Source: an uncultured bacterium
GTDB lineage: Bacteria; Calescibacteriota; Calescibacteriia; Calescibacteriales; Calescibacteriaceae
DNA length: 29,383 nt
NCBI GenBank assembly: GCA_938036315.1
Contig: CALHPK010000014.1
Location: 1 to 29,383 of the forward strand
Direction: 5' to 3'
How positions within the stretch are numbered: position 1 is the stretch's first letter; every line of letters begins with the position of its first letter. A program made the position numbers and the translations under genes. Below the pieces are notes generated by a model. It was not told the origin of the DNA. It did no database searches and saw nothing but the letters and a program-made list of their open reading frames with translations. Below are positions 26,813 through 29,383 of this stretch, piece by piece.

Positions 26813-28036
26813 TTACAAATTTTTTTTCAAATCCCAAAGGACGTCCAAGAATAGATCAATTTCTTTTTTTTGAATAACAAGTGGAGGAAGAATTCTTATT
26901 CTGATGTCTCCTTTATATGATTTTAGTACATTAGCTATTATTCCGCGCTCTATAAGAAATTGATTTATGTCTGTAGGCTTTTTTTTCAGATTGTTTTCAT
27001 CGCCCAAAGTTATCCCGAGCATAAGTCCTTTCCCATCTACACCAAAGCCAATTTCTTCTTTTATTTTTTTTGCAAGGTAGTTACCCTTCACGGCAACTTC
27101 CCGGAGAAATTTCTCCCTCCTTACTCTGCTTATAACATAGGTGCCAGCAACGCAAGACAGGGGATTTCCTCCAAAGGTTGAAGCATGGAGACCTGGCTTT
27201 ACGCACTCGGATATTTCCTCAGATACCGCTGTGACACCTAATGGTAAACCTCCGCCAATTGCTTTTGAGGAAGTCAGAATGTCAGGAAAAATGCCGTCCC
27301 ACTCAAAGCACCAGAATTTTCCAGTCTTTCCAACTCCGGTCTGAATTTCATCAACAACAAGAAGGGTTTCTGTTCTTTTACATAGGTTGGCAAGCTCTTT
27401 GAGAAATTCTTTTGGAGGAGTGATGACGCCTGATTCTCCCTGAATTGGTTCCACGATGACCGCTGCATATTTGCCGGTTTTGAGTTCTGCTTCTACCGCT
27501 TCTAAATCTCCGTAATTTACAAAGTTAAAACCTTCAAGGAGGGGGTAAAATGGTTTTTTAAATTCTTCTTTCCAAGTGGCTGATAGTGCACCTGTGGTTC
27601 TGCCGTGGAAAGCTCCTACAAAACATAAGAAATTCATTTTCTTCCCTTGGAAGAATAATCTGGAGAACTTTATTGAGGCCTCTATGGCTTCTGCGCCAGA
27701 ATTGGACAGGAAAATCTTGTACTTTTTCTGAAGAGTTTTCAGAAATTCCTCTCCGAATTTTATCTGGCTTTTGTCATAAAGAAGGTTTGAGACGTGTAGA
27801 TATAGCTTTATCTGTTTTCTAAGAGCTGTCAGGAGTTCTGGAACTGAATGTCCTAAGACCATCACACCGATGCCAGAGATCATATCAAGGTATTTTTTTT
27901 TACCGGAATATATGAAGCATCCCGATGCTCTGTCAACAGAGATCGGATACTTTGAGTATGTGTTGAGAAAATAGTTGTGGTATTTATTATGCACCGGTTT
28001 ATAGAAAATTTCTTTTTGAATTCTTTGGCTATGCAA
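26813..28036 (-). CDS. argD: Class III aminotransferase, acetylornithine/ornithine type
   Basis: 407 residues of fold-type I PLP enzymes. Motifs: YLDMISGIGVMVLGHSVPEL, FLSNSGAEAIEASIKFSR (PLP phosphate loop), FHGRTTGALSAT, VEPIQGESGVI, LLVVDEIQTGVGKTGKFW and ILTSSKAIGGGLPLG, where the Lys of SSKAIGGG binds PLP. These fit acetylornithine aminotransferase (ArgD) best, but ornithine, succinylornithine or putrescine-type aminotransferases are close. The start is uncertain: TTG 28036 gives 407 residues. GTG 27994 (13 bases after a weak purine stretch) gives 393 residues and aligns better with the usual YLLNTYNRYP-like start. Convergent with the TRAP gene, 9 bp apart. Confidence 0.88.
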   Translation of the reverse strand: MHSQRIQKEIFYKPVHNKYHNYFLNTYSKYPISVDRASGCFIYSGKKKYLDMISGIGVMVLGHSVPELLTALRKQIKLYLHVSNLLYDKSQIKFGEEFLKTLQKKYKIFLSNSGAEAIEASIKFSRLFFQGKKMNFLCFVGAFHGRTTGALSATWKEEFKKPFYPLLEGFNFVNYGDLEAVEAELKTGKYAAVIVEPIQGESGVITPPKEFLKELANLCKRTETLLVVDEIQTGVGKTGKFWCFEWDGIFPDILTSSKAIGGGLPLGVTAVSEEISECVKPGLHASTFGGNPLSCVAGTYVISRVRREKFLREVAVKGNYLAKKIKEEIGFGVDGKGLMLGITLGDENNLKKKPTDINQFLIERGIIANVLKSYKGDIRIRILPPLVIQKKEIDLFLDVLWDLKKNL

Positions 28037-28062
28037 ATTTCAGTTTTTATTTTATTTTTATA

Positions 28063-28153
28063 TTCCTTTTATTTTGTGCTTGATTTTCTGATGAAAAACT
28101 GGTTTTCCTTCTGTTTATTGATTAACCGATTAAATTGGTAGGATATGGAAAGG
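28063..28153. repeat. Direct repeat, copy 1: duplicate of the htpX leader and first codons
   Basis: About 91 bp nearly identical to 28768-28859, from TTCCTTTTATTTTGTGCTTG through ATGGAAAGG. Differences are clustered in the middle: copy 2 has TTGACA where copy 1 reads TTCTGATGA. An imperfect dyad CCGATT-A-AATTGG (28126-28138) and the TAGGAT before the ATG are shared. The two copies are 705 bp apart and in the same orientation. Confidence 0.93.
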
Positions 28154-28291
28154 ATTAAATTGGTTAAAAATATGGATTTCTGGCGATTCAGCTGGAGTTG
28201 GGATAAACGAAATAGTTCATCTGCACCCCCAAAATGGGATAGAAAGCAAAGTACTTTGTATATGACCGATTCATCTGCCCATTGCGTGTAG
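28145..28291 (+). CDS. Possible 48-residue Trp-rich peptide starting in the repeat (uncertain)
   Basis: An ORF starts at the ATG that corresponds to the htpX start in repeat copy 1. It has the same TAGGAT leader, shares MER.K with HtpX, and then diverges completely. The remainder contains four tryptophans (W13, W17, W19, W31) and many Ser/Lys residues, has no membrane helix, and ends in AHCV and TAG. It may be an expressed small protein using the duplicated leader, or a chance frame after a duplication breakpoint. Other frames are also partly open here. Coding status cannot be decided from sequence. Confidence 0.25.
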   Translation: MERIKLVKNMDFWRFSWSWDKRNSSSAPPKWDRKQSTLYMTDSSAHCV

Positions 28292-28331
28292 AGAAAGGGG
28301 AATTTATGAAAGAATGTAAGGAGACAAAGAT

Positions 28332-28622
28332 ATGACAAAGAAAAAAAGGATGAATTCGAAATTTAAGGGGTTGGTTTTCTTGCTTTTAAGGCTATTTTTT
28401 GTATTCATGATCTTCATAGTTTTCTCTATTTACGGTTGCGGTGAAGTAACAACGCCTACCAAACACTGTACTGACCCCGATTACCCATTATGGTGTCCTG
28501 ATCATCGCTGGTGTTGTCCTTCTGGTTTCCCAATATCCTGCGGTGGTCTATGCTACAAAACAAGAGAAGATGCCGTGCGTAACTGCAGTGCGTCAATAGA
28601 TACCTGCGAGCCTGAAAAGTAA
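28332..28622 (+). CDS. Small cysteine-rich lipoprotein
   Basis: 96 residues. A basic N-terminus (MTKKKRMNSKFK), a 20-residue hydrophobic core and the lipobox IYGC make C36 the lipidated residue. The mature 61-residue part has eight more cysteines (46, 55, 61, 62, 70, 74, 85, 92). Their spacing is C-x8-C-x5-CC-x7-C-x3-C-x10-C-x6-C, enough for four disulfides. The segment LWCPDHRWCCPSGFPISCGG, then LCY.T...A...C, resembles small extracellular Cys-rich repeats I recall from delta-proteobacterial secreted proteins. AAGGAG lies about 8 bases before ATG 28332, so it is probably well translated. It sits between the two htpX-leader repeats. Function unknown: a disulfide-stabilised surface knot, binding module or inhibitor are all possible. 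Confidence 0.8.
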   Translation: MTKKKRMNSKFKGLVFLLLRLFFVFMIFIVFSIYGCGEVTTPTKHCTDPDYPLWCPDHRWCCPSGFPISCGGLCYKTREDAVRNCSASIDTCEPEK

Positions 28623-28649
28623 AAGTCTCCCACCCCTTGGATGGGACTT
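28623..28649 (+). terminator. Hairpin after the Cys-rich lipoprotein gene
   Basis: AAGTCTCCCA and TGGGACTT pair as an 8-bp stem with one bulged T and a loop of about 9 bases, starting right after the TAA. The T-run after it is poor (TATCTT), so termination may be partial. Confidence 0.45.
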
Positions 28650-28767
28650 ATCTTAGATAATTGCAGAGGATGCCACCTATTACACCGTAGATATCATTTT
28701 ATGAAAGTTTTATCTTTCGGAATTGATTTTGAGTATATGCTGTTGTGATCCACAATTTATTATATTG

Positions 28768-28859
28768 TTCCTTTTATTTTGTGCTTGATTTTGACAAAAA
28801 AAACTGATTTTCCTTCTGTTTATTGATTAACCGATTAAAATTGGTAGGATATGGAAAGG
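28768..28859. repeat. Direct repeat, copy 2: htpX leader and first codons
   Basis: About 92 bp matching 28063-28153. This copy leads into the intact htpX frame. It has a TTGACA (28791-28796) absent from copy 1 and the dyad CCGATT-AA-AATTGG (28831-28844) just before TAGGAT and the htpX ATG, a plausible operator or leader element. Confidence 0.93.
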
Positions 28860-29383
28860 TTTAAAACATTTCTTCTGCTGACTGTTTTGACTGCAATCCT
28901 TCTTTTTATGGGGCAATTAATAGGTGGTAGAACTGGACTCACGATAGCTCTTGCTTTGGCTGGGGTTATGAACTTTATAGCATATTTTCTATCTGACAAG
29001 ATTGTCTTAGCTATGTATGGTGCGAAAGAGCTCTCCGCAGCTGAAGCTCCTTCACTTCACAGGATTGTGGAGGAGCTCTCCGTATCGGCAGGGATTCCAA
29101 AACCTAAGCTTTACATTGTTCCTTCGCCTTCTCCAAATGCCTTTGCTACCGGGCGTTCGCCTTCTAATGGAGTAGTAGCGGTAACACAGGGTTTATTGAG
29201 AATTCTGAATGAAAACGAAGTAAGAGGAGTAATAGCGCACGAACTTGCACATATAAAAAATAGAGATACGCTTGTTCAGGTTGTTGCTGCAACAATAGCA
29301 GGAGCAATAATGTACCTTGCTAATATGCTGAGATGGAGCTTGTTTTTGTTTGGTCCAAGACACAGTGATGAAAGGGAGGGGGG
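28851..29383 (+). CDS. htpX: HtpX-type membrane zinc metalloprotease, N-terminal part (runs off window)
   Basis: 177 codons are present and the frame is open at the right edge. MERFKTFLLLTVLTAILLFM starts a first membrane helix, followed by a second (about 28-47, ALALAGVMNFIAYFL). Then comes the DKIVLAMYGAKELS linker, PKLYIVPSPSPNAFATGR and the catalytic HELAH (130-134) in GVIAHELAHIKNRD. This order is that of HtpX, an M48-family inner-membrane protease for damaged membrane proteins, often heat-inducible. The third zinc ligand lies beyond the window. ATG 28851 follows TAGGAT. The upstream region is repeat copy 2. Confidence 0.93.
   Translation, partial: MERFKTFLLLTVLTAILLFMGQLIGGRTGLTIALALAGVMNFIAYFLSDKIVLAMYGAKELSAAEAPSLHRIVEELSVSAGIPKPKLYIVPSPSPNAFATGRSPSNGVVAVTQGLLRILNENEVRGVIAHELAHIKNRDTLVQVVAATIAGAIMYLANMLRWSLFLFGPRHSDEREG

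Follow-up and report, generated by a model that had tools for sequence, protein, structure and literature searches.

A local duplication of the htpX promoter region and start codon, with a small orphan gene between the copies

The region immediately upstream of the heat-shock membrane protease gene htpX, together with the start codon and first codons of that gene, is present twice in this genome, as direct repeats that derive from htpX and are confined to its locus within the assembly. The window, by which we mean the whole 29,383-nt stretch of DNA analysed, corresponds to the entire contig C14 and stops within htpX, where there is a poly-G run (29370–29383). The repeats and the gene lie as follows.

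28051–28159, plus strand: copy 1 of the repeat (htpX promoter and start), adjoining a divergent aminotransferase gene (alignment and shuffles).
28756–28865, plus strand: copy 2, which spans the promoter region of the intact htpX and its codons 1–5 (alignment).
28851–29383, plus strand: htpX, N-terminal part of an M48 membrane protease (Pfam match), with its remainder opening contig C16.

In a gapped alignment of copy 1 (109 nt) with copy 2 (110 nt), 98 of 110 columns are identical (89%), with 11 mismatches and a single 1-nt gap. The repeat scan reported the same relationship as two blocks, one of 84 nt at 88% identity (28051/28756, spacing 705) and one of 28 nt at 96% (28132/28838, spacing 706). 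The copies align with a score of 85, against 17.5 ± 2.9 for dinucleotide shuffles (maximum 29, n = 2000), so the repeat is far beyond chance. The initial annotation had described direct repeats of about 91 bp, 705 bp apart, spanning the region before htpX and its first codons; the repeats are real and their content is as described (htpX upstream region, ATG and codons 2–5), the reported length being slightly short. An assembly chimera of two loci or strains appears extremely improbable. The assembly is a draft and the contig does end within htpX, but the copies share at most about 30 nt of exact identity, too short a run, and are too diverged overall, to mislead assembly, and the contig breaks off roughly 500 nt beyond, at the poly-G run and away from the repeat. 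Because the first bases of contig C16 (L133:1-325) take up htpX again, with a few codons missing, the two contigs are adjacent in the genome. C16 also carries a gene (L133:6135-7808) whose N-terminus (SRPRRFGKSLFLDTIKQAF), judged from reading the translation, resembles AAA-ATPase-like proteins; these are often present in many copies in anaerobes.

The identity of htpX is clear from its match to Peptidase_M48 (PF01435; E 7.9e-24, 84.9 bits against a cut-off of 20.3) and from the sequence HELAHIKN, the HExxH motif by which M48 membership is judged, and the protein is approximately 79% identical to HtpX from one genome of the same family. HtpX proteins of four same-family genomes open with MV(E/Q)RLKTF, while the starts encoded here are MERFK in copy 2 and MERIK in copy 1. 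Since copy 1 keeps MER-x-K, like the family HtpX starts, the unit originates from htpX, as had been supposed, and copy 1 is the displaced duplicate. A class-III aminotransferase gene on the minus strand (26813–28036) diverges from copy 1 and adjoins it, and because copy 1 stays beside this gene, the original arrangement probably ran from the aminotransferase through the leader to htpX.

Across the 1.87-Mb assembly (32 contigs, ~85% complete) the 110-nt unit occurs in these two places only, both at the htpX locus; the genome-wide search for further copies that the initial annotation had called for thus found the unit confined to it within this assembly. The unit is absent from the four same-family genomes, in which the matches are to the htpX coding region only, at 71–75% DNA identity. 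With two copies in the assembly and none in these relatives, a dispersed genomic repeat is ruled out. A 35-bp match in one relative (G001, contig C10) falls in AT-rich sequence and was taken as chance, and IMG/VR contains no exact counterpart of the unit's longest shared core (32 nt). Comparison of the locus itself drew on the same four genomes (G001–G004), the next level of kinship in the list being the domain. Their htpX genes adjoin genes for MazG-like (G004), galactokinase-like (G002) and glyA-like (G001, G003) products, named from translations alone, and since these neighbours differ from those seen here, neither an empty site nor a duplication is visible in the relatives. A single-leader htpX locus lacking the roughly 700-bp segment, which had been proposed as the informative comparison, is therefore not found among the four. 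Our search of the literature found no matching case.

The segment between the copies is 596 nt long and holds one orphan open reading frame; it gives only chance-level matches in the neighbouring contig, the family loci and the rest of the window.

28332–28622, plus strand (28332–28619 and stop): orphan ORF of 96 aa for a small Cys-rich putative lipoprotein, with AAGGAG, a signal peptide and SIYGC.

The ORF has an AAGGAG ribosome site shortly before its ATG, and its product begins with a basic n-region (KKKRMNSKFKG) and a long hydrophobic helix (residues 9–34), followed by a lipobox-like SIYG-C and eight further cysteines. Tyr at position −2 is unusual. The earlier description of a small Cys-rich lipoprotein gene with its own ribosome site between the copies accordingly stands as regards a separate ORF and its AAGGAG, the lipoprotein assignment being putative. 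No convincing homologue of the protein was found among 386 genomes, where the weak matches look like chance once aligned, and a search of 60 genomes likewise gave only weak, chance-like matches; plasmids, phages, IMG/VR, Pfam, NCBIfam, PHROGs and PDB yielded no credible match, and its own assembly holds no relative. A structural model comprises an N-terminal helix and a small beta/alpha domain, at low confidence (pLDDT 68, pTM 0.30). The synonymous codon score of the ORF is lower than that of all 78 equal-length segments of window genes. A separate codon score, at −0.061 per codon, lies below the first percentile of equal-length gene segments (−0.007), an effect that partly reflects a Cys/Trp-rich composition. 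Its codon choice would fit a foreign or very young gene and would also be compatible with a non-coding frame. A candidate terminator 3′ of the gene was not convincing (hairpin z −0.7).

These properties bear on two other ways in which the arrangement might have arisen. A cassette that brought in the lipoprotein gene along with an htpX promoter and start of its own could have integrated upstream of htpX, through homology-assisted or site-specific entry, to leave attL/attR-like ends. An orphan gene with atypical codons, standing alone between direct repeats beside an htpX left intact, is in keeping with such entry, and a diverged incoming copy would explain the 11% difference between the copies without great age. 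We nonetheless consider it unlikely: no integrase or other recombinase gene, no transposase and no terminal inverted repeats are found in the 596 nt, the 110-nt unit recurs nowhere else in the assembly, the orphan protein occurs neither elsewhere in the assembly nor in phage, plasmid or viral collections, and 110 nt far exceeds the duplications known from transposition. The segment thus lacks the marks of a transposable or integrative element, and the suggestion that the repeats are the footprint of an inserted element finds no positive evidence. The second alternative, a tandem duplication of the whole of htpX in which nearly all of the body of the first copy was lost and overwritten by the orphan segment, draws on the htpX start codon and codons in copy 1, by which the duplicated unit reached into the gene. 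It seems very improbable to us, as the 596-nt segment contains no trace of the htpX body, its 3′ end or the downstream gene, and no second piece of htpX is found elsewhere.

The sequence following copy 1 has features of its own.

28145–28291, plus strand: 48-codon open frame, whose opening is the copied htpX start (MERIK) and whose remainder has diverged (ORF list).
28154–28176, plus strand: the end of the leader (ATTAAATTGGT..ATATGGA) copied again, partially and imperfectly, at the close of copy 1 (P 0.004 against shuffles, noted post hoc).

The 48-codon frame has no family match and its codon scores are not gene-like; it is probably a relic. Near-repeated words within it (28146–28291), WDKRNSS / WDRKQST and TTCATCTGC, the latter occurring twice, possibly reflect another small internal duplication. 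The re-copied leader end hints at slippage or template switching at the copy 1 junction.

We then consider what the unit contains. The presence of TTGACA in copy 2 only (28791–28796) had been read as a −35-like element of regulatory meaning, but no −10 lies 16–18 nt after it and the promoter scan lists nothing there, so that TTGACA is ruled out as the −35 of copy 2. A different layout appears to apply.

28836–28841, plus strand: TAAAAT, which ends 9 nt short of the ATG and is probably the −10 element of htpX (leaderless layout).

Start-codon statistics were drawn from 111 genes with free upstream sequence, in the window and about 185–195 kb of further stretches of the same genome. The pattern TA[ATG]AAT ends 6–13 nt before the start codon in 15 of these genes, where ~4 are expected from gaps of 15–49 before the start (Poisson P ~3e-5), and SD-like sites precede 18 of the 111, compared with 3 in the shuffled control. 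The small number of SD-like sites and the enrichment of −10-like hexamers before starts, over ~220 kb, suggest frequent leaderless transcription in this lineage. Similar boxes precede htpX in the family, with TATAAT-N10-ATG in G001 and TATTAT-N10-ATG in G002. A leaderless 'TA-led' class of genes, in which a −10-like TANNNT stands about 10–12 nt before the start codon without an SD, has been described, and such signals were read as marking leaderless genes (Zheng et al. 2011, PMC3160421). At htpX the box stands close to 10 nt before the start with no SD (TAAAAT-N9-ATG), and the gene is, on this statistical evidence, most likely TA-led, with a leaderless mRNA from TAAAAT. Given the enrichment before starts, the boxes of the family genes and the TA-led precedent, the duplicated unit would amount to a complete leaderless promoter and start codon. 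Copy 1 has lost one A, a 1-nt deletion that changes TAAAAT to TTAAAT (or TAAATT), and its promoter, if active, is for that reason probably weaker.

Conservation of a dyad and of TAGGAT between the copies had also been taken to point to regulation. Both copies contain the dyad, ACCGAT-TAAA-ATTGGT, where its fold shows no advantage over shuffles (z +0.5 and +0.8), and no conserved RNA structure or Rfam element was found. If 13 differences (the real count is 12) were spread evenly over 110 positions, 29 or more consecutive identical bases would turn up in 19% of cases. The conservation does not, then, bear out selection, which two copies by themselves cannot demonstrate.

Taken together, the evidence leads us to favour, as somewhat more probable than otherwise, an old local duplication of the htpX promoter and start, followed or accompanied by acquisition of the orphan gene. 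The promoter region, start codon and first codons of htpX would have been duplicated locally some time ago, leaving copies that are now 596 nt apart with one small, probably acquired, lipoprotein-like gene between them. Copy 2 would still drive htpX, most likely through a leaderless mRNA starting from TAAAAT nine bases before the ATG, while copy 1 keeps most of the promoter, less one base of that box. Transcription from copy 1, if it is active, would run through the truncated MERIK relic into the orphan gene, where translation would start at that gene's own Shine-Dalgarno site. Equally, the 11% difference between the copies could have been there from the outset, for example because one copy derived from another strain. 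The initial proposal of a tandem duplication that moved a new gene under an htpX-like leader is therefore upheld in that the unit is htpX-derived and local and has a separate gene between its copies; the regulatory evidence offered for it is unsupported. A more far-reaching possibility, in our judgement quite unlikely, is that the ready-made unit copied here was a leaderless stress promoter with its start, and that it now drives, alongside the envelope protease HtpX, a Cys-rich envelope lipoprotein newly acquired or newly born. If the copied promoter did drive the orphan gene in this way, a new gene would have been caught joining an envelope-stress response. The locus is a modest and fairly ordinary example of a bacterial gene that ends up beside a copied promoter, involving by itself no new mechanism, and it points to leaderless transcription as a common mode in a lineage that is poorly sampled.

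That bacterial promoters can be duplicated or moved is known. The present case is similar in placing a copied promoter ahead of a gene other than its donor, and differs in being one event at one locus, with a copy that includes the donor's start codon and four further codons. Compared with known M48 membrane proteases, HtpX matches in its Peptidase_M48 domain, the sole unusual feature here being the duplication of its promoter and start. With the TA-led genes (PMC3160421) htpX shares a −10-like box without an SD, of a kind enriched in this genome; it differs in that here a whole leaderless promoter and start, recognised from the DNA sequence, appear to have been duplicated.
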